Assembly: GCA_900314855.1 (NCBI GenBank)
Contig: OMWZ01000004.1
Span: 1 to 64,000, forward strand
Length of the DNA: 64,000 bases
Direction: 5' to 3'
From: an uncultured Selenomonadales bacterium
Lineage (GTDB): Bacteria > Bacillota > Negativicutes > Acidaminococcales > Acidaminococcaceae
Part shown: one piece after another, positions 1 to 8,498 of the stretch
Layout of the letters: each line of letters opens with the position of its first letter
Position numbering within the stretch: the first letter of the stretch is position 1
Position numbers and translations under genes: made by a program
Notes under the pieces: model-generated
What the model saw: only the letters and a program-made list of their open reading frames with translations
What the model was told of the DNA's origin: nothing
Database searches by the model: none

Positions 1-102
1 GTTTGAGAGCTGTGTAAATTCCAGGTACTCTAAAACTTTATACGCTGACAGAAGAAAGCACGACCAGTTTTAGAGATTTATCAATTGGTTCTATGTATAT
101 TT
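1..102 (+). CRISPR. Leader-distal end of a type II CRISPR array
   Basis: Bases 1-36 form a complete 36-nt repeat that begins GTTTGAGAGC and ends CTCTAAAAC, the GTTT...AAAC form typical of type II (Cas9) arrays. Bases 37-66 are one 30-nt spacer. Bases 67-102 hold a decayed repeat starting GTTTTAGAGA that matches the full repeat at about 15 of its first 20 positions and then diverges. A decayed last repeat normally marks the end far from the leader, so the leader, earlier spacers and cas genes should lie to the left of the window. No cas gene or convincing tracrRNA anti-repeat was seen inside the window. Confidence 0.85.
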
Positions 103-155
103 GGGGGCTTTATCGAAGTATAGGAACATCTTCTATTCCCTAAAGGAGCCATTCT

Positions 156-560
156 ATGCGTACGATTCATGTCGTGGCCGCCGTGCTGGAACACGATGGC
201 CGCATCTTCGCCACCCAGCGCGGCTACGGCGAATTCAAAGGATATTGGGAATTCCCCGGCGGCAAAATCGAGCCCGGCGAAACCCCGCAGCAGGCCCTGC
301 GCCGCGAAATCCAGGAAGAACTGGCCACGACCGTCGACGTGGGCCCTCTCGTCGGCACCGTCGAATACGACTATCCCGACTTCCACCTGTCCCTGCAGTG
401 CTATCACTGCCGCGTCCTGGCCGGGCACCTGACCCTCCTGGAACACGAAGCCGCCCGCTGGCTGCCCCTGGACGCCCTTGCTTCCGTCGACTGGCTGCCG
501 GCTGACCGCGATCTGGTTCGCCAGTGGCAGCGCCAGGGAACCGTGGCAGCGAAAAAATAA
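156..560 (+). CDS. Nudix hydrolase, MutT / CTP pyrophosphohydrolase-like
   Basis: This 134-residue protein is about the normal length for small MutT-type nucleotide pyrophosphatases, which clean oxidised or odd nucleoside triphosphates in the cytoplasm. The Nudix box is complete: G36, E42, then REIQEE at residues 50-55, with a GYWEFPGGK lead-in that is characteristic of the (d)NTP-cleaving subgroup. A good ribosome site (AAAGGAG) lies 7 bases before the ATG. The gene starts about 50 bases past the end of the CRISPR array and runs away from it. The exact nucleotide substrate cannot be read from the sequence. Confidence 0.9.
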   Translation: MRTIHVVAAVLEHDGRIFATQRGYGEFKGYWEFPGGKIEPGETPQQALRREIQEELATTVDVGPLVGTVEYDYPDFHLSLQCYHCRVLAGHLTLLEHEAARWLPLDALASVDWLPADRDLVRQWQRQGTVAAKK

Positions 561-1031
561 GCAAGACAGGACAAGATGTCCCCCCGTTTCCGTCCGCGAA
601 TTTCCTCGGGCGACGGGGGATTTTTTTCGATTTCCGTCCGATTTTCCTCCAATTTCCCTCCAAATTTTTCCCCAATTTCCTTCTTTTTTTGCCTTTTTGG
701 CGGGACATCTTCCTGCTTGAAAAATACATTACGGGACTGAAAATGTCCCGAAAATGCTCTTCTTCGTCCTTCCTGCCGGAAAAAATCCCCAAAAATCCTG
801 AAAATTTTTAAACTGTCGCAACCCATGGTCCCATGCGGGTTTCCGAACTTCGCGCAGCGCGAGGTACGGATTTTTTTTGCTTTTTTTAAAAATTTCCGTG
901 TAGGTTTTTCAATCTTCGAGCGTATATATGGGTGAGAGGGTAATTAGGAACCTACAGGTACGGCCCCCAATCCGCCTGGAAAAATGGTCCCGGTTCCGTC
1001 CCTCATCTTACAGGCCAAAGGAGTGTTTCCC
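561..1031. other. Long non-coding stretch with inverted repeats
   Basis: No convincing gene lies here. The stretch holds a C/T-rich tract (about 610-690), an 8-base inverted repeat CGGGACAT (701-708) and ATGTCCCG (743-750), a strong terminator hairpin (843-880), and a second inverted repeat TGTAGGTT (899-906) and AACCTACA (949-956) in the leader of the next gene. Its base composition is visibly lower in GC than the flanking genes. Confidence 0.6.
843..880 (+). terminator. Rho-independent terminator
   Basis: A near-perfect stem pairs CCGAACTTCGCG with CGCGAGGTACGG around a CAG loop, followed by eight T residues. It lies 280 bases past the mutT-like gene, so it ends either a long 3' tail or a separate small RNA. 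Confidence 0.8.
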
Positions 1032-1763
1032 GTGTTACTTACCAATCCTCGCGTCGTCACGGAAGACGACATTATCGACATGGCCCGCGAGGCCGCCGGC
1101 AGCATCGATACAATCTATCTGCACTGGACGGCGGGCCATTACGGGCAAATCTTCGACGACTACCATTTTTCCATCGACGGAGACGGTACCATCTATGCCG
1201 CCTGCCGGTCGCTGCTGGAGAAAAAGTGCCACACTTGGCGCCGCAACAGCCGCAGCATCGGGATCGCGCTGTGCGGCGCGTACGGCGCCCGCGTGACCTT
1301 GCCGACCTGCGAGATCGGGGCCGGCGTGTCCGCCCTGAGCCGTGCCGAGCAAGTCATGCCGCATATCCCCCACATCGTGGAGTATGGCCCGGAGCCGCCT
1401 CTTCCGCTGCAAACGGAAGTCATGGCGCGGCTGGTCGCGATTCTGTGCCGTCATCTCAACCTGCCCATCGAGCCGGCGACGGTACAGACCCATTGCGAAG
1501 CCGCCATCCGCGACGGCTACGGGCCGTGCTCCGACGACCCCGAACTCCGCTGGGACCTGTGGTTCCTGCCCAATGCCGATCCCTCGGCCGCTGCGTCCGG
1601 GACGCCGGAGGAAGCCAAAGCCCGGGAATGGCAGGCCCTGTCCGTCACGGTGGCGGACGCCGAAGAGGCCGCGCGGCTCGTGGCGGAGCTTCCCATCACA
1701 CGGGGAGGGGACCTGGTGCGGGGCAAAGCGCGGTGGTACCGCGCGCACACGTGGCTGAACTAA
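1032..1763 (+). CDS. N-acetylmuramoyl-L-alanine amidase (amidase_2 / PGRP fold)
   Basis: The protein should cut the amide bond between MurNAc and the stem peptide of peptidoglycan. The zinc-site pattern of amidase_2 enzymes is visible: H31 in LHWTAG, H67 in CHTWRRN, and H154 in QTHCEA. I chose GTG 1032 because AAAGGAG ends 8 bases upstream; an ATG at 984 is in frame but has no such site. The 243-residue product has no signal peptide, as in phage endolysins, and has about 50 extra charged residues at the C-terminus. It heads a tight cassette with DUF1659, DUF2922 and YvrJ proteins. Whether the cassette is a lysis, export or wall-turnover module is unknown. Confidence 0.85.
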   Translation: MLLTNPRVVTEDDIIDMAREAAGSIDTIYLHWTAGHYGQIFDDYHFSIDGDGTIYAACRSLLEKKCHTWRRNSRSIGIALCGAYGARVTLPTCEIGAGVSALSRAEQVMPHIPHIVEYGPEPPLPLQTEVMARLVAILCRHLNLPIEPATVQTHCEAAIRDGYGPCSDDPELRWDLWFLPNADPSAAASGTPEEAKAREWQALSVTVADAEEAARLVAELPITRGGDLVRGKARWYRAHTWLN

Positions 1764-1794
1764 TCCTTCGGCCCCTGCGAAAGGAGGTGAGATC

Positions 1795-2013
1795 ATGGAC
1801 TTCAACGTAACCAAACGGACCCTGGGCGTTATCGTCGAAAACGGCACCGATGCCAACGACGAAATGACCTACAAGACGTTTTCCTTCCACGGCGTCAAGC
1901 CGGGCGTGGAGAAAGACGCTCTCGTGCAGGCCGGCCTGGCGCTTGCGTCCCTCATGGACGCCGTGCTCTACGGCATCGGCCTGACCGAAAAATCCGAAAG
2001 CAAACAGAACTAA
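1795..2013 (+). CDS. DUF1659 family small protein
   Basis: This 72-residue protein matches what I recall of DUF1659: a short beta-rich N-terminus, a YKTFSF...GVKPG segment near residues 26-36, and a closing helix with QAGLALASL. It has a textbook AAAGGAGG ribosome site. DUF1659 and DUF2922 genes are commonly neighbours in Firmicutes, and the partner follows directly. No catalytic motif, signal peptide or membrane segment is visible. The function is unknown; it may be a structural partner of the next protein. Confidence 0.8.
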   Translation: MDFNVTKRTLGVIVENGTDANDEMTYKTFSFHGVKPGVEKDALVQAGLALASLMDAVLYGIGLTEKSESKQN

Positions 2014-2038
2014 TCCTTAATGGAAAGAGAGGAATTTT

Positions 2039-2275
2039 ATGGCAGAAGTATTGAAAGCTTCGCGGGAAAAGAAACTGGAACTGATTTTCGCGACGGCCGG
2101 TGGACAGAAAAAGACGATCGCCATCGCCCAGCCGAAGGAAGACGTCACGAAAGAAGCGGCCGAGGCGGCCATGCAAAAGGTCGTGGACGCCGGCGTCTTT
2201 ACGACAGCGAAAGGGGACCTGGCAGGAATCGTGGGAGCCCGTATGCGCACGACGGACCTGGAACCCCTGGCCTGA
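2039..2275 (+). CDS. DUF2922 family small protein
   Basis: The 78-residue product has the DUF2922 pattern: KKLELIFATAGGQKKT near residues 10-25, an acidic IAQPKEDVT stretch, a helix ending in AMQKVVDAGVF, then GDLAGIVGARM. The start is ATG 2039, with AGAGAGG upstream. It lies 25 bases after the DUF1659 gene and is followed closely by a YvrJ gene, so the three are probably translated from one message with the amidase. It has no known enzymatic residues; the function is undescribed. Confidence 0.85.
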   Translation: MAEVLKASREKKLELIFATAGGQKKTIAIAQPKEDVTKEAAEAAMQKVVDAGVFTTAKGDLAGIVGARMRTTDLEPLA

Positions 2276-2296
2276 CCGCCGGGCTCCTGACTTCCC

Positions 2297-2449
2297 TTGG
2301 ATACGGAGCAGCTGCTGCGCGGCATCGCGGACGTCGGCTTTCCCATCATCCTCAGCTGGTACCTGCTCGTGCGCATGGAGAGCAAGCTTGCCGGCCTGAC
2401 CGAGGTGTTGCGGGAGCTGAGCGTCAATGTGGCGGCCTTGCGGCAGTAA
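2297..2449 (+). CDS. YvrJ family small membrane protein
   Basis: A 50-residue protein starts at TTG 2297, the first possible start after an in-frame stop at 2288. Residues about 9-27 (IADVGFPIILSWYLLVRM) form one hydrophobic helix that contains the family's GFPI...YLLVR pattern. The rest is a helix of LTEVLREL type. YvrJ proteins are small and uncharacterised, and this one resembles the UviB/BhlA holin-like plan of one membrane helix followed by an amphipathic helix. That resemblance is my inference. With a signal-less amidase in the same cassette, it could be the membrane partner that lets the amidase reach the wall. Confidence 0.7.
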   Translation: MDTEQLLRGIADVGFPIILSWYLLVRMESKLAGLTEVLRELSVNVAALRQ

Positions 2450-2640
2450 CCGTGGGACCGCCATAACCGCCTTGATCACGTCCGCAGCGGCAGCGGGGCA
2501 CTCCGCCGGGAAGGCGGAGTGCACGGGCCCGCCGGCAGGAAAGCAGAAAAGACGCCGGCCGGGGCGCCCCCAGCCCCGGCCGCGCCGAAAGCGCCGCCGG
2601 CGCGGCCTTGCACCCCCGACACAGTGACGCGCAACACGAA
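2450..2640 (+). other. GC-rich spacer after yvrJ
   Basis: The yvrJ reading frame stays open for another roughly 80 codons after its stop and encodes an Ala/Pro/Lys-rich run with GC-rich third positions. It has no start codon with a ribosome site, so I do not call a gene. A small hairpin (CACTCCGCC with GGCGGAGTG) lies near 2501-2522. Confidence 0.3.
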
Positions 2641-2673
2641 GCGCCTGGATCTTCGCGATCCAGGCGCTTTTTG
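2641..2673 (+). terminator. Rho-independent terminator
   Basis: An 11-bp perfect stem (GCGCCTGGATC with GATCCAGGCGC) with loop TTCGC is followed by TTTTTG. It closes the amidase-YvrJ transcript and directly abuts a parS-like site. Confidence 0.9.
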
Positions 2674-2687
2674 TTTCCCGTGAAACA
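2672..2687 (+). other. parS-like site 1
   Basis: TGTTTCCCGTGAAACA differs from the ParB/Spo0J consensus TGTTTCACGTGAAACA at one base. It is flanked by an extra T...A pair and lies between two convergent genes. It is one of five identical copies in the window. Confidence 0.75.
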
Positions 2688-2748
2688 AGGGCAGGGAAGC
2701 CCGGGGCTGCGCCACCCTCCGGGGCCGCGGCGTAGGCAGGGGTCCGCC

Positions 2749-3450
2749 TCATTCGTCCAGCAGTTTGGCGCCGGTTAGGAAAAAGTCGCTTTTCCGGTAG
2801 CGCAGGAGTCCTTCCTTCTGCATCTTGCTCAGCTCGGCGCTCAGGGCCGACCGGTCGACCCCCAGGTAATCGGCCATCTGCTGGCGGTCGAAGGGGATGG
2901 TGAAACGGCGGCTTTGGGTCTTTGTCGCCAGAAAGGACAGATAGGACAGAACGCGGCCGCGGATCGTTTTGGGCGCCGTGTGCAGCATGCGGCGCGACAG
3001 GGATAGGTTTTTCCGCGCCAGGATATGCAGCAGGTTCGCCGTCAAGCGGGGATATTCCCAATGCTGCCCCGCCCGGATGGTCAGGATCCTGGACACATCC
3101 AGGCACAGGACATCCGTATCCTCGGCGGCGACCACGTGGATCAGCAGCGGCTCGTCGCCCATGGCGGCGTAGGCTTCGGCAAACAGGTCGCCCGTTTCCG
3201 CTTGTCCCAACAGGGCGCGGTTGCCCCAGACATCGTCGTGCTCGATATGGACGCGGCCGCGCAGGACCAGACTCATCGTGTGGACCCGGTCTCCTTCCAG
3301 ATGGATAAAAGCGCCTTTGGGATAGGACCGGATCACGGCTCCGAGGGCAACCAATTTCGCCTGGATGTCCTGTTCGGCAATTCCGGCAAACAAGGGTGTC
3401 GTGGCCAGGAAACGATAATCCAAATCAGACAGTGTCAGGGCAGTCCTCAT
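2749..3450 (-). CDS. Crp/Fnr family transcriptional regulator
   Basis: The 233-residue protein has the normal two-part build: an N-terminal cyclic-nucleotide-binding-like barrel (about residues 15-130, with LVLRGRVHIEH and GDLFAE) and a C-terminal winged helix (about 150-225) whose recognition segment is RQQMADYLGVDRSALSAELSKM. No cysteine cluster of the Fnr type is present near the N-terminus, so an oxygen-sensing Fe-S form is unlikely. GGAGG precedes the ATG by 6 bases. The gene faces away from the SNF symporter region, and the space between them could hold a shared control site. Effector and targets are unknown. Confidence 0.9.
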   Translation of the reverse strand: MRTALTLSDLDYRFLATTPLFAGIAEQDIQAKLVALGAVIRSYPKGAFIHLEGDRVHTMSLVLRGRVHIEHDDVWGNRALLGQAETGDLFAEAYAAMGDEPLLIHVVAAEDTDVLCLDVSRILTIRAGQHWEYPRLTANLLHILARKNLSLSRRMLHTAPKTIRGRVLSYLSFLATKTQSRRFTIPFDRQQMADYLGVDRSALSAELSKMQKEGLLRYRKSDFFLTGAKLLDE

Positions 3451-3853
3451 GCTCCATTCCTCCTTTTTGTTGGCAAGACAACGGCAGTTCTCTCGAAGGT
3501 ATCATATCCTATCCTAAGGAAAAGGACAAGGGGATTCGCGCCCCGCCGCCCCGCCCCGCCGCACACGAAAGCGCAGCCCCGCCGCTTTCGCCACCGTGGG
3601 AAGGGCCGGCCTCCCATCGTCCTCCCTGGCCAGGGCCTTGCCGGATCTACCATAAAAACACAATCGTCCTTTTGTAATACTGTATTGTGCTGGTTTTTGG
3701 GGAATTTGATGGAAAATTTTCCGTAACGGTAGACAATTTTTGAAAACACGGTATAATGTGAGATATGTGTTTTTGAACGACGCACGCAGCGGCAAGAGAG
3801 AGAAAGCCGGCGGGCGGATGAGAGAAAAAGATCCCAGGGGGTTGGAGAGTCGT
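3451..3853. other. Divergent intergenic region with promoter
   Basis: No gene is seen between the Crp-type regulator and the SNF symporter. The right half is AT-rich and carries the promoter at 3730-3757; about 95 bases of transcribed leader follow before the chosen ATG. Confidence 0.6.
3730..3757 (+). promoter_or_regulatory. Sigma-A-type promoter of the SNF symporter
   Basis: TAGACA and TATAAT are separated by 16 bases. The site lies about 100 bases before the symporter start. Confidence 0.65.
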
Positions 3854-5251
3854 ATGGATGAGAATCAGAGAAACAGTTTTACCGGTACTTTAGGATTTGT
3901 CATGGCCGCGGCAGGCAGTGCCGTCGGCCTGGGGAATATCTGGCGCTTCCCGTTCCTGGCTGCCCGTGACGGCGGCGGCCTGTTTTTGGTCTGCTACCTG
4001 CTGCTGGTGGCGACCTTCGGGTACACGCTGCTGACGACGGAAATCGCGTTGGGGCGCGGCACGCGCCAGGGCCCGCTGACGGCGCCGTCCAAAGTGGACC
4101 GCCGCTTCAGCTGGGTCGGGGTGCTGGCCTGCCTGGTGCCGGTGCTGATCCTGCCGTACTACAGCGTCATTGGCGGCTGGGTGTTGAAATACCTCTGGGC
4201 CTTCCTTTCCGGCAGCGGGACGGCCGCTGCAGGGAGCAAGTATTTTACGGGCTTCATTACGAGCCAGTGGGAACCGATCGGCTGGTTCCTAGTCTTTATC
4301 CTGTCAACGTGCTTCGTCATTTATCGCGGGGTGGAGAAGGGCATCGAGCGGTATTCGAAGGTCCTCATGCCGATCTTCTTCCTGCTCATCGTCGTCGTTT
4401 CCGTCTATTCCCTGACGCTGAGCTACACCGATTCCGCCACGGGTGTCACCCGCACAGGCTGGCAGGGGTTCCTGATTTATACCATCCCCGATTTCCAGAA
4501 CCTGACATTCGGTAAATTCCTGTCCGTCCTGATGGATGCCATGGGGCAGTTGTTCTATTCCATCTCCGTCGCCATGGGCATCATGATCGCCTACGGTTCC
4601 TATGCCAAAAACAAGACGAACCTTTACCAGGCGGTCAACCACATCGAGTTCTTCGACACCCTGGCGGCGTTCCTGGCGGGCTGCATGATTATTCCCGCCG
4701 TCTTCACCTTCATGGGACGCGAAGGCATGTCCGCCGGTCCGGCCCTGATGTTCATTTCCCTGCCGAAAGTGTTCGACGCCATGGGCGGGTTTGGGGTCGT
4801 CGCGGGCATCTTCTTCTTCGTCATGGTCACCTTCGCGGCCCTGACCAGCAACATTTCCATCATGGAAGCCATCGCGGCCAGCTTTATGGACCGCTTCGGC
4901 TGGTCCCGCGCCAAAGCGACGACGATCATCGGCCTGTACGCCATCCTGGGCGGCCTGATCGTCTGCCTGGGCTATAACAAGCTCTATTTCGAGCTGCCGC
5001 TGCCGAACGGCGCCATCGCCCAGGTCCTCGACCTGGCGGACTACATCAGCAACAACATCGCCATGCCGGTCGTCGCTATCGGCGAATGTATCCTGATCGG
5101 CTGGGTTGCCGGTCCGGACTGGGTCATCGGCGAATTCAAAAAGGGCGGGTTCCCCTTCGGCCGCGAAACGATGTACAGATTGTTTGTCAAGTTCGTCACG
5201 CCTATCCTGCTGTTTATCCTGTTCCTGCAAGCCTTCGGCGTCTTCAACTGA
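3854..5251 (+). CDS. Sodium:neurotransmitter symporter (SNF/NSS) family
   Basis: The 465-residue membrane protein belongs to the LeuT-type sodium-coupled amino-acid importers. The first membrane helix carries the family signature AAAGSAVGLGNIWRFPF (about residues 15-32), which builds the Na+ and substrate site. About 11 to 12 hydrophobic segments follow. I chose ATG 3854 because GGAGAG lies 5 bases upstream and the protein then begins at the family's usual position; starts at 3740 or 3818 would add an odd basic tail. It has its own promoter and terminator. The next gene is an exported lyase-like enzyme, which may act on the same class of substrate. Confidence 0.92.
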   Translation: MDENQRNSFTGTLGFVMAAAGSAVGLGNIWRFPFLAARDGGGLFLVCYLLLVATFGYTLLTTEIALGRGTRQGPLTAPSKVDRRFSWVGVLACLVPVLILPYYSVIGGWVLKYLWAFLSGSGTAAAGSKYFTGFITSQWEPIGWFLVFILSTCFVIYRGVEKGIERYSKVLMPIFFLLIVVVSVYSLTLSYTDSATGVTRTGWQGFLIYTIPDFQNLTFGKFLSVLMDAMGQLFYSISVAMGIMIAYGSYAKNKTNLYQAVNHIEFFDTLAAFLAGCMIIPAVFTFMGREGMSAGPALMFISLPKVFDAMGGFGVVAGIFFFVMVTFAALTSNISIMEAIAASFMDRFGWSRAKATTIIGLYAILGGLIVCLGYNKLYFELPLPNGAIAQVLDLADYISNNIAMPVVAIGECILIGWVAGPDWVIGEFKKGGFPFGRETMYRLFVKFVTPILLFILFLQAFGVFN

Positions 5252-5266
5252 GACGGCGCGGAATTT

Positions 5267-5302
5267 CCTCCGGACCTCCTTCGGGCAGTCCGGAGTTTTT
5301 GT
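5267..5302 (+). terminator. Rho-independent terminator
   Basis: Stem CTCCGGAC with GTCCGGAG, followed by TTTTTG. It ends the symporter transcript and leaves the following lyase gene under its own promoter. Confidence 0.85.
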
Positions 5303-5331
5303 TTGCCAGCGCGGGCGCCGTCGGGTACAAT
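5303..5331 (+). promoter_or_regulatory. Sigma-A-type promoter of the exported lyase
   Basis: TTGCCA and TACAAT with a 17-base spacer, directly after the upstream terminator's T-run. About 80 bases of leader follow to the ATG. Confidence 0.7.
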
Positions 5332-5413
5332 AAAGACAGCAAAGGAGCAGAAGCGAGGCGGGACGCGTGGTTCCCGTCCGGGGGCTCCCTGTTTTCGCGA
5401 GGAGGTAGTGCCT

Positions 5414-6925
5414 ATGTTGCTGCGCAAATCGTTCCTGGCCCTGTTGGCCTGCACGCTCTTGACCGGCGTTGTCGGCGGGGCGGGGGAAGCGGCCCCGACC
5501 GCCGCCGCGCCGCGGGATAATTTCTACTGGCTGGGCCAGATCAACAAGGCCACGGACATCATCAACACGGACGAAGGCCTGCTGACGAAGGAAGAAGGCC
5601 GTGCCTTCGCCCAGGCGATTGCCAAGGTCCTGGCCGACGGCAGCCGCCCCGGCGCCGACCGTCCGTCCAACGTCATCCTGTTTGAACCCTACCTGATCCA
5701 GGCGGCGGGCCCGCAAATCACGAAAATCCATGCCGGTCGTTCGTCGCAGGATATGCTGACCACCGTCGGCATCCTGGAACAGCGGGAACATCTCCTCGCC
5801 CTGGCAGACGGGCTGAACCGCGTCCAGGCCGATTTGATCGCCCTGGCCGAAGCGAACCGCGAAACCATCATTCCCAATTACACCAACGGGGTCGCCGCCC
5901 AGCCGAACAGCCTGGCCCACTACCTGCTGGCCTACGCCGACGCCTACAGCCGCGATATGCAGCGCCTGCGCCAGTACTACAAACGGCTCAACCGCTCGCC
6001 CATGGGCGCCACGGTCCTGAACGGCACCGGCTGGCCCCTCAACCGCGATCGCATGGCTCATTACCTGGGCTTCGACGGCCTGGCCTACAACACATACGAC
6101 GCCGGCCAGGTGTTCCCCCAGGAAGCCCCCATCGAATCGGGCGGGATTACGAACTGCATCGCCATCCACACGACGGGATTTATTGAGGAAATCATGCAGC
6201 AATATGCCCAGCCGCGGCCTTGGATCCTGCTGAAAGAGGGCGGCGGCAACACGTACGTGTCCTCCGCCATGCCCCAGAAACGCAACCCGGGAATCCTCAA
6301 CCGCTGCCGGACCGACGCCTCGACCCTGTTGGGCCTGTCCGTCGAAGCCGCGTTCCGGTCCCACAACATTCCCGCCGGGATGGCCGACGGCCGCCTCAAC
6401 GGGCGGAACGATGTCTTTCCCCGGGCCACGAAGGTCCTGGCGGGCCTGGACCAAATCCTAAACAACCTCGTTATCGACCCCGACCGGGCCCTGGAAGAAC
6501 TCAATCTCGACTGGACCTGTTCCCAGGAAATCGCCGACCGGCTCATGAAAAACCATGGCATTCCCTTCCGGACGGGACACCATTTCGCCAGTGAAATCGT
6601 TTCCTATGCCCGGGCACACAACATTACCCCGAAAGAGTTCACCTACGACCAGGCCCGTCAGGTCTACGCCCGCGTCGTCGCCAACGATCCGGTCCTGCCC
6701 CAGGCCTTCCCCATGACGGCGGAAGAATGGGACAGCGCCAAAGATCCCCGGGCCATCGTCCGCAACCGTGCCGTCAAAGGCGGTCCCCAGCCGGCCGAAC
6801 TGGATAAGATGCTGCGCATGGCGAAAGAGACCGTGGCGGACCATGAAGCATGGACCCGGCAGACGCGGAAGAAACTGGAAGACGCGGAAGCACGGTTAAA
6901 TGCGGATTTTCAGGCCAAACTATAA
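5414..6925 (+). CDS. Exported fumarase/argininosuccinate-lyase superfamily enzyme
   Basis: The 503-residue product belongs to the lyase superfamily that includes argininosuccinate lyase and fumarase. The hallmark catalytic loop is present as [11 protein letters not shown] (about residue 285). Other ASL-like pieces are GRSSQD in the first third and [13 protein letters not shown] in the middle. Unlike normal ASL it starts with a signal peptide: two basic residues, a hydrophobic run [13 protein letters not shown], then an Ala-rich cleavage zone near residues 24-32. ATG 5414 follows GAGGAGG. It should therefore work outside the cytoplasm. No arginine-synthesis gene is adjacent; the SNF symporter lies upstream. 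The substrate is unknown, and a C-N or C-O beta-elimination is expected. Confidence 0.8.
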
Positions 6926-7082: not shown

Positions 7083-8498
7083 TTACTGCTGCGTGCTGAC
7101 CAGCCCTTCTGTCGAAATCGCTTTCTTGCTCACGAAGCTGATGCCACAGAACACGCCGCCGCAGACGAGCCATTCGGCGTAGATCACATGGGGCAGGACG
7201 CGGACTGCCGGGAGGAACATCCAGGCGACAAGCACGACGATGGAGGCGAGAATCGTCCAGAACGCGGCCTGGCGGGAGCAGTACTGGGGAGCATACATGG
7301 TCATGAGTACGATGACGGAGAAGGCCGCCATGAGAGACAGGCCGGCCATGAGGGTGGAAATGATGCCGCTGATGGTGAGGGCGAAGCCCAGGGTCAACAG
7401 GCCGAGCAGGAGGACGGAAATCCGCGTGACCCGCATGTAGCGGCTGTCGTCCATGTCCGGCTCGACAAACCGTTTGTGGATGTCGTGGGAATAGAGCGTC
7501 GCCGCCGACAGGAGCAGGTTGCAGGCCGTGCTGACATCGGCCGCCCACAGGGAGGCCAGGGTAATGCCCGCGATCCACGGATTGAGGCTCATGATGAGGC
7601 GGGGCAGGGCCGTCGTCGGCGCGATGCCCGGGTACAGCTCCGACGCGATGACGCCGAGCAGGGCGGCGACGAAGCCGACGGGCAGCATGACGAGGCCGCC
7701 GTAGAGGAACCCGCGCTGCGCCGTCCGCACATCCCTGGCGCCCAGGGAAATCTGGATGATGGCCTGCAGGGACAGATTGACCGTGACGAGGACGACAATC
7801 CACGTCACGATGGTCATGCCGCCGACACCGCCGACCAGATCCAGGGCGTGGACCGTCGGCGCCTGGACGGCCACGACATCGATCCCGCCGGCCAGGCCCA
7901 GGATCAGGAAAGCCGCCACGGTAATGCCGATATACTGGATCGTCACGTTCAGGATATTCGACTGGCTGGCGGACCACATGCCGCCGATGAGGGTGATGCC
8001 GATGAAGACGACGGCGCTGGTCAGCATGCCCGTCAAGGGCGTGAACAGGTCGGGCAGGAGGGACGCCAGGATGGCGCCGCCGGCCACGTACTGCAGGCTC
8101 ATGATGACGAGCTGCACCAGAATCTGGCAGGTAATGCCCGCCACTAGGGCCCGTTTGTCATAGTACCGTTCCAGCAGTTCCGGCACGGTCGTGATGTTGA
8201 GCTGGCGGTACTTTTTCGCGACCGTGAGGCCCATGACGATGGCGCCGATGCCCCAGGCCGCCGTGTACCAGCCTGCCGACAGGCCCACTTTGTAGGCCTG
8301 TTCCGCCACGCCGATCGTGGACGCGCCGCCCACGGCGAGCCCGACGATGGACACGAGAATCAACGGCGTCGTCAACTTGCGCCCTGCCAGGACATACGCC
8401 TCGGCCGACGCTGCCGCCCGGTGCTTCACATACGCGCTGATGCCGAACAACACGGCAACGTAGGCGACAATGATGAAAATCTGTACTGCTGAACCCAT
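7083..8498 (-). CDS. Sodium:solute symporter (SSS/SSF) family, Phe T-box controlled
   Basis: The 471-residue protein has about 13 hydrophobic segments and the SSF fold signatures, including GGASTIGVAEQAYKVG (near residue 57), the helix-2 region of sodium/solute symporters. It probably imports an organic solute with Na+. Its leader is a T-box RNA whose specifier reads UUC (Phe), so it is expected to be switched on when tRNA-Phe is uncharged. This makes phenylalanine or a precursor such as phenylpyruvate or an aromatic amino acid the best guess for the substrate. That assignment is inferred from the leader, not from the protein. Confidence 0.88.
   Translation of the reverse strand: MGSAVQIFIIVAYVAVLFGISAYVKHRAAASAEAYVLAGRKLTTPLILVSIVGLAVGGASTIGVAEQAYKVGLSAGWYTAAWGIGAIVMGLTVAKKYRQLNITTVPELLERYYDKRALVAGITCQILVQLVIMSLQYVAGGAILASLLPDLFTPLTGMLTSAVVFIGITLIGGMWSASQSNILNVTIQYIGITVAAFLILGLAGGIDVVAVQAPTVHALDLVGGVGGMTIVTWIVVLVTVNLSLQAIIQISLGARDVRTAQRGFLYGGLVMLPVGFVAALLGVIASELYPGIAPTTALPRLIMSLNPWIAGITLASLWAADVSTACNLLLSAATLYSHDIHKRFVEPDMDDSRYMRVTRISVLLLGLLTLGFALTISGIISTLMAGLSLMAAFSVIVLMTMYAPQYCSRQAAFWTILASIVVLVAWMFLPAVRVLPHVIYAEWLVCGGVFCGISFVSKKAISTEGLVSTQQ

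Follow-up and report, generated by a model that had tools for sequence, protein, structure and literature searches.

A four-gene cassette of an N-acetylmuramoyl-L-alanine amidase, a DUF1659 protein, a DUF2922 protein, and a YvrJ protein, found in positions 1–64,000 of contig OMWZ01000004.1 (GCA_900314855.1; this whole 64,000-nucleotide stretch is hereafter called the window), is probably a host-owned, transcriptionally gated module of the holin/endolysin type. We propose that a dedicated regulator, which would be a sigma-70-like factor in the lineage of the window and a ComK-like activator in many Clostridia, fires a special promoter, and that YvrJ, a one-helix holin-like protein, may then permeabilize the cytoplasmic membrane. 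The leaderless amidase would thereby get to the wall and cut it, and the envelope would open in those cells that express the cassette, probably a fraction of the population. DUF1659 and DUF2922, made together in the cytoplasm, may act as a complex that controls the holin or is moved by it. We infer pore formation by the YvrJ of the window, and lysis, rather than leakage or controlled export, may be the outcome. Under this proposal, three uncharacterized families gain a testable job, the opening of the cell envelope from inside. The links to phage holins, murein hydrolases, ComK-like activators, and a definable promoter also come together in one question, namely whether regulated envelope opening is wired to competence. 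If the proposal is true, holin-based release would no longer be limited to a handful of special cases (UviB, TcdE, and the type 10 secretion systems) but would be a widespread trait, since about half of the genomes sampled in the phylum encode DUF2922, almost always along with DUF1659 and with YvrJ or another holin.

Gene content and surroundings of the cassette

The four genes lie on the plus strand and end at one terminator, as originally predicted, and all four proteins exceeded the curated Pfam cut-offs. The first gene (1032–1763, 243 aa; Amidase_2, PF01510, E-value 1.6e−11) encodes a cytoplasmic-type N-acetylmuramoyl-L-alanine amidase and starts with GTG at 1032, preceded by AAAGGAG. It is followed by the DUF1659 gene (1795–2013, 72 aa; PF07872, E-value 2e−13), which starts with ATG at 1795, preceded by AAAGGAGG, and encodes an acidic protein with a predicted beta-beta-alpha-beta arrangement, and by the DUF2922 gene (2039–2275, 78 aa; PF11148, E-value 2.5e−21), which starts with ATG at 2039. 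The YvrJ gene (2297–2449, 50 aa; PF12841, E-value 2.8e−13) starts with TTG at 2297 without a clear ribosome site, and this codon aligns with the ATG start of a relative (L161). Its holin-like product has one hydrophobic stretch, beginning at approximately residue 9, and is predicted to form a single membrane helix with an amphipathic tail. A strong hairpin with a 14-bp stem and a T tract (2638–2670, plus strand) constitutes the predicted intrinsic terminator of the cassette.

The immediate neighbors identified with Pfam were an upstream NUDIX gene (156–560) and a downstream Crp-type regulator gene (2749–3450, minus strand), followed by an SNF-family symporter gene; the contig ends 1 kb upstream of the cassette. 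A terminator-like site (602–620) separates the NUDIX gene from the cassette, and an A+T-rich stretch lies between this site and the cassette. An Rfam search of window positions 1–6000 gave no match. Neither capsid nor tail genes were observed adjoining the cassette, which leaves the earlier suggestion that it serves to release a particle unsupported.

The cassette had also been described as adjoining a CRISPR array. A 36-base type II-like repeat (GTTTGAGAGCTGTGTAAATTCCAGGTACTCTAAAAC) is present at positions 1–36, followed by a stretch of the length of one spacer and then a degenerate repeat (window positions 1–110), but it is a single copy located right at the contig end. Because the exact repeat occurred only once in the whole assembly, the array is cut off by the contig end, and the upstream neighborhood is therefore truncated. 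A functional link between the repeat and the cassette is not claimed, given this single terminal occurrence and the different flanks of the cassette in relatives.

Distribution of the DUF1659-DUF2922-YvrJ trio

In a survey of 76 loci read with their flanks (18 from the genus of the window's organism and 58 from elsewhere in the phylum), DUF1659 adjoined DUF2922 in all 76, and YvrJ came next in 63 of the 76. The arrangement is therefore not due to chance, and the three families are indeed recurrent neighbors, as stated in the original prediction. DUF2922 was detected in 48 of 61 near relatives and in 157 of 299 genomes sampled evenly from the phylum, with up to 8 copies per genome. A profile search of genome contigs matched one relative, Acidaminococcaceae bacterium UBA2453. 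The trio mostly occurred as a single copy per genome, frequently without an amidase, and many of these single-copy trios lay in a conserved metK-comFC neighborhood, with comFC adjoining the trio in eight loci (L070, L177, L185, L187, L189, L201, L204, and L207).

These observations support a host-owned module, in line with the domestication suggested earlier. We consider it highly improbable that the cassette is a functionless relic of a decayed prophage lysis module. The phage-type character of YvrJ and the endolysin and the phage-type or plasmid replication genes near some copies (L064, L067, and L087) would speak for such a relic, but DUF2922 is conserved in about half of the sampled genomes, with open frames, a fixed gene order, and matching regulators. 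Moreover, the searches of viral contigs and phage records detected neither DUF1659 nor DUF2922, although there are weak matches to PHROG profiles.

One of these copies lies on a very small element, the 7.5-kb Lactobacillus johnsonii plasmid pLjDC22.2_1 (L067), which carries DUF1659, DUF2922, YvrJ, an integrase, SSB, a replication initiation protein, and a LysM protein. In several Clostridia, a small Cys-rich (zinc-finger-like) protein is encoded between DUF2922 and YvrJ or replaces YvrJ (L086 6769–7014, L171 5808–6029, L178 6456–6677, and L183 5580–5843), and a similar Cys-containing gene occupies the same spot on the L. johnsonii plasmid.

YvrJ resembles phage holins and is replaced by unrelated holins

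The YvrJ protein of the window scored 49.6 bits against PF12841 (cut-off, 29.5 bits). A profile scan of viral contigs found YvrJ in 33 contigs, at least 11 of which had an endolysin beside it: Amidase_2 (L128, L130, L135, L139, L142, and L149), Amidase_3-like (L137 and L141), M15 (L131), M23-like (L155), or CHAP (L159). The viral YvrJ gene was frequently located directly after long, structural-looking genes. Most of the phage YvrJ copies scanned lay above the PF12841 cut-off (E-values 3e−18 to 1e−10), with the L159 copy and gp33 of Bacillus phage KonjoTrouble slightly under it; gp33 is annotated as a holin and is flanked by a transglycosylase and an endolysin. The PHROG 4898 “holin” profile matched two viral copies (L128, E-value 5.6e−9; L129, 2.9e−8) and a clostridial chromosomal YvrJ (1.6e−5), and its match to the YvrJ of the window was weak (0.0037).

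The place of YvrJ after DUF2922 can also be taken by unrelated holins. Phage_holin_4_1 (PF05105) occupied it in L199 (E-value 2.7e−10) and L203 (6e−10), and the PHROG 13712 holin occupied it in L070 (1.6e−10) and, with a weaker match, in L189. In Aerococcus, DUF2922 was followed by a coiled-coil protein whose N-terminus is hydrophobic, a Dp-1 holin (9.5e−30), and a CHAP endolysin, with a sigma-70 gene upstream. This replacement of holin by holin, together with that of hydrolase by hydrolase described below, argues most strongly for a function in opening the envelope. The PHROG matches, genomic company, and exchange support the view that YvrJ behaves as a phage-type holin or phage lysis protein, and its holin-like nature, already proposed, was supported. 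The build of an endolysin plus a holin was likewise supported, with several unrelated hydrolases at the amidase position, but the likeness to UviB/BhlA did not extend to homology. A relationship of YvrJ to BhlA was rejected because neither the YvrJ of the window nor ten phage YvrJ proteins matched Pfam Holin_BhlA at an E-value ≤1, and this lack of detectable homology to the proven BhlA/UviB holins counts against the holin/endolysin-type reading.

In many of the viral contigs L128–L160, YvrJ was followed by a second small protein of approximately 100–120 residues with a hydrophobic N-terminal half, copies of which (L129 and L142) had no clear PHROG match. The two proteins are possibly a two-component holin.

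Murein hydrolases beside the trio

The amidase of the window had no hydrophobic N-terminal segment and no signal peptide (best 15-residue mean, 0.56), as noted originally, and it matched the PHROG 5867 endolysin with an E-value of 2.9e−22. In an alignment of 37 sequences, residues H31, H154, D161, and D175 each reached at least 95% conservation, which is consistent with their being zinc ligands. A murein hydrolase lay within 2.5 kb of the trio in 16 of the 18 own-genus loci and at 2.5–6 kb in none; elsewhere in the phylum, the corresponding numbers were 16 and 1 of 58 loci. When all 76 loci were pooled, 32 had a hydrolase within 2.5 kb vs 1 at 2.5–6 kb. The hydrolase was encoded either upstream or downstream of the trio and belonged to one of four unrelated types: Amidase_2, Amidase_3-like, M15 (with or without a peptidoglycan-binding domain), and CHAP.

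The original prediction had made the lysis idea depend on the trio being accompanied by an amidase. This companionship was observed within the genus, but 42 of the 58 loci elsewhere had no hydrolase within 2.5 kb. The amidase is therefore a frequent lineage add-on outside the core of the cassette, which consists of DUF1659, DUF2922, and a holin. The same 42 loci, together with the metK-comFC setting of many single-copy trios, argue for a non-lethal role there. The organism of the window belongs to the Negativicutes, whose cells possess an outer membrane, and an analysis that included no dedicated spanin search noticed none with the cassette; this combination also counts against the holin/endolysin-type reading.

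In one locus (L079), a staphylococcal-nuclease-type protein (7411–8064; PF00565, E-value 4e−27) is encoded between YvrJ and an Amidase_3-like gene.

The DUF1659 and DUF2922 proteins

DUF1659, DUF2922, and YvrJ are rarely named in the literature, and we found nothing there on their function. The DUF1659 and DUF2922 proteins are cytoplasmic, mostly acidic, and always found together. An AlphaFold2 model of DUF1659 had a mean pLDDT of 80 and a beta-beta-alpha-beta arrangement, and that of DUF2922 (pLDDT 56) was too poor for use; the alignments for both models contained only two rows each. The DUF1659 model matched no known fold among PDB and viral structures at an E-value ≤0.001, and no relatives of either protein with a solved structure were found. 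For these reasons, the earlier idea that the pair are structural or particle proteins was rejected as unsupported. Both proteins share a beta-beta-alpha start, but common descent as paralogues was not established (profile E-value 0.057), and a role in DNA binding is disfavored by a median pI of approximately 5.2. Our best guess is that DUF1659 and DUF2922 may form a complex that times, blocks, or otherwise controls the holin, or that uses it or is moved by it.

Comparison with known systems

In our best reading, the cassette would be built like the UviA/UviB locus or a type 10 secretion system. The Clostridium UviA/UviB/amidase/Bcn5 locus, which has a BhlA-family holin and is thought to lyse the producer for Bcn5 release, likewise combines an alternative sigma factor, a one-helix holin-like protein, and an adjacent N-acetylmuramoyl-L-alanine amidase outside a phage (PMC9527704). 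It differs in that the YvrJ (PF12841) of the cassette is not detectably a BhlA homologue, DUF1659 and DUF2922 occupy the place of the cargo gene, the regulator is often ComK-like, and the amidase is often missing. Furthermore, the sigma gene that lies beside the holin in UviA/UviB is absent at the cassette of the window but near 14 of the 18 genus copies, and no bacteriocin cargo was seen adjoining the window cassette, with Nif11 precursors near a few relatives only. The type 10 secretion systems (Serratia ChiWXYZ and Yersinia YenLC) share with the cassette, as proposed here, a phage-derived, host-owned holin and endolysin, a dedicated regulator, and action in a subpopulation (PMC10847048). 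In contrast, the cassette uses other holin and hydrolase families and has the obligate DUF1659-DUF2922 pair in addition. Those systems combine holin, endolysin, and spanins outside a phage under one regulator; in the cassette, holin-like and endolysin genes are present and no spanin was noticed. Because it has no BhlA match, no adjoining cargo gene, and no spanin that was noticed, the cassette is not classed as a member of either system.

The TcdR/TcdE-type loci also combine a sigma factor with a holin, beside cargo that lacks a signal peptide (PMC9527704); the cassette has no such cargo and usually a different holin family, with PF05105 in place of YvrJ in L199 and L203. In the SigO-RsoA regulon of B. 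subtilis, YvrJ is likewise controlled by an unusual sigma factor, which is upregulated in competence (PMC8103513, PMC7317962). B. subtilis differs, however, in having no DUF2922: when it was used as a control genome, YvrJ was matched but DUF2922 was not.

Linkage to sigma-70-like and ComK-like regulators

Linkage to regulators and a shared promoter-like motif are new here, both having been absent from the original prediction. A sigma-70-like factor was encoded near the cassette, often divergently, in 14 of the 18 own-genus loci (8 within 2.5 kb and 6 within 6 kb), and in other families a sigma-70-like gene lay directly upstream. The cassette of the window has no linked sigma gene, and one clear relative was found in its genome (C8:80852–81391, 27% identity); the missing linkage and the weak PHROG 4898 match count against the holin/endolysin-type reading.

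Outside the genus, 18 of the 58 trios adjoined a gene for a ComK-like protein. Among 24 members, 7 matched PF06338 at an E-value ≤0.1 (best, 25.2 bits; cut-off, 22.3 bits), suggesting that the regulator partner in many Clostridia is a distant ComK homologue or ComK-like protein. It was present in 122 of the 299 genomes, and DUF2922 occurred in 118 of these 122 (odds ratio 104, p = 1e−42); this p-value overstates independence because the model was built from trio neighbors and the genomes are related by descent. In 48 of the 105 genomes with both places listed, the ComK-like protein was not within 5 kb of the trio, which argues for a dependence beyond proximity. No ComK-like protein was found in the genome of the window. 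In competent B. subtilis, sigO was increased 3.9-fold and rsoA 8.7-fold (PMC7317962), and yvrJ is transcribed by SigO-RsoA (PMC8103513). The association of ComK-like and sigma factors with the cassette fits these published data.

It is conceivable that the trio forms a host-owned holin complex conserved across the phylum, in which two cytoplasmic proteins partner the holin. ComK-like proteins or a cognate sigma factor would trigger this complex in part of the population, and the selected cells would open their envelopes and release DNA, RiPPs, or other cytoplasmic contents, but we regard this extension as tentative. If true, competence and self-opening would be two arms of one ancestral programme. 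We consider it rather doubtful that the trio is instead a competence-associated, non-lethal envelope gate, switched on by ComK-like or sigma factors in transformable cells, in which YvrJ and the DUF pair would help DNA or protein to cross and the amidase would merely trim the wall. Such a gate would accord with the near confinement of ComK-like proteins to DUF2922 genomes and their position beside the trio, with the adjoining comFC in eight loci, with the rise of sigO and rsoA in competent cells, and with the usually single-copy, often amidase-free trio. However, the occupation of the YvrJ place by three unrelated phage holin families is more in keeping with pore formation than with a specific gate, the association is possibly regulatory only, and the genome of the window lacks a ComK-like protein.

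A promoter-like motif shared by the cassettes of the genus

A promoter-like element common to the own-genus cassettes (TTTTT..TATATATGGGTGAGAGGGTAATTAGGAA) was located at 903–950 on the plus strand, ahead of the amidase gene, with an E-value of 1.9e−4 against profile R1, which was made from the upstream regions of 14 relatives with the window excluded. The motif reads roughly GTTTC.TTTTT..GGGCTC..GGATTATATAAGTG.RRGGG.AAA. When the whole genome of the window (1.83 Mb) was searched, 903–950 was the sole match (E-value 0.0077). In relatives, the motif heads most cassettes and one orphan amidase (L251); two relatives (G004 and G009) had no profile match at an E-value ≤1, and a divergent version was visible in L126. 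The sigma-like factor of the genus may pair with this motif.

Genes other than the cassette are also preceded by the motif in genus relatives, namely Nif11-like RiPP precursor or radical-SAM genes (L246, L247, and L250) and, with arrays of 3–6 copies, P4-family primase (D5_N) genes (L239–L242, L245, and L248). This raises the alternative that a bacteriocin or mobile-element programme uses the cassette as its release arm, with a single sigma regulon that produces a RiPP or another cargo together with a P4-type primase before lysing the producer. The shared build of UviA-UviB-amidase-Bcn5 (PMC9527704), the Nif11 precursors near three cassettes, and a stand-alone D5_N-like gene after YvrJ in 4 of 18 cassettes point in the same direction. 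We nevertheless judge this alternative improbable, since its link to RiPP and primase genes was observed in one genus only and the genome of the window has a single motif and, when searched, yielded no Nif11 leader and no D5_N primase. The RiPP and primase links are therefore clues from outside the system of the window. Nif11 leaders usually accompany dedicated transporters, which also counts against a release arm.

The Nif11 precursors within a few kb of cassettes are encoded at L093 281–508, L096 6950–7231, and L100 542–778. The stand-alone D5_N-like protein, a paralogue of the P4-family primase of approximately 115 residues, is encoded 3′ of YvrJ at L091 704–1075, L095 5459–5809, L096 6335–6697, and L105 1987–2403. 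In the motif arrays, the copies lie on one strand with a spacing of mostly 50–85 bases (L239 7151–7309 and 8341–8622, L240 7101–7422, L241 4159–4538, and L242 6778–7140); these arrays before the primase genes may be tandem promoters or an iteron-like origin.
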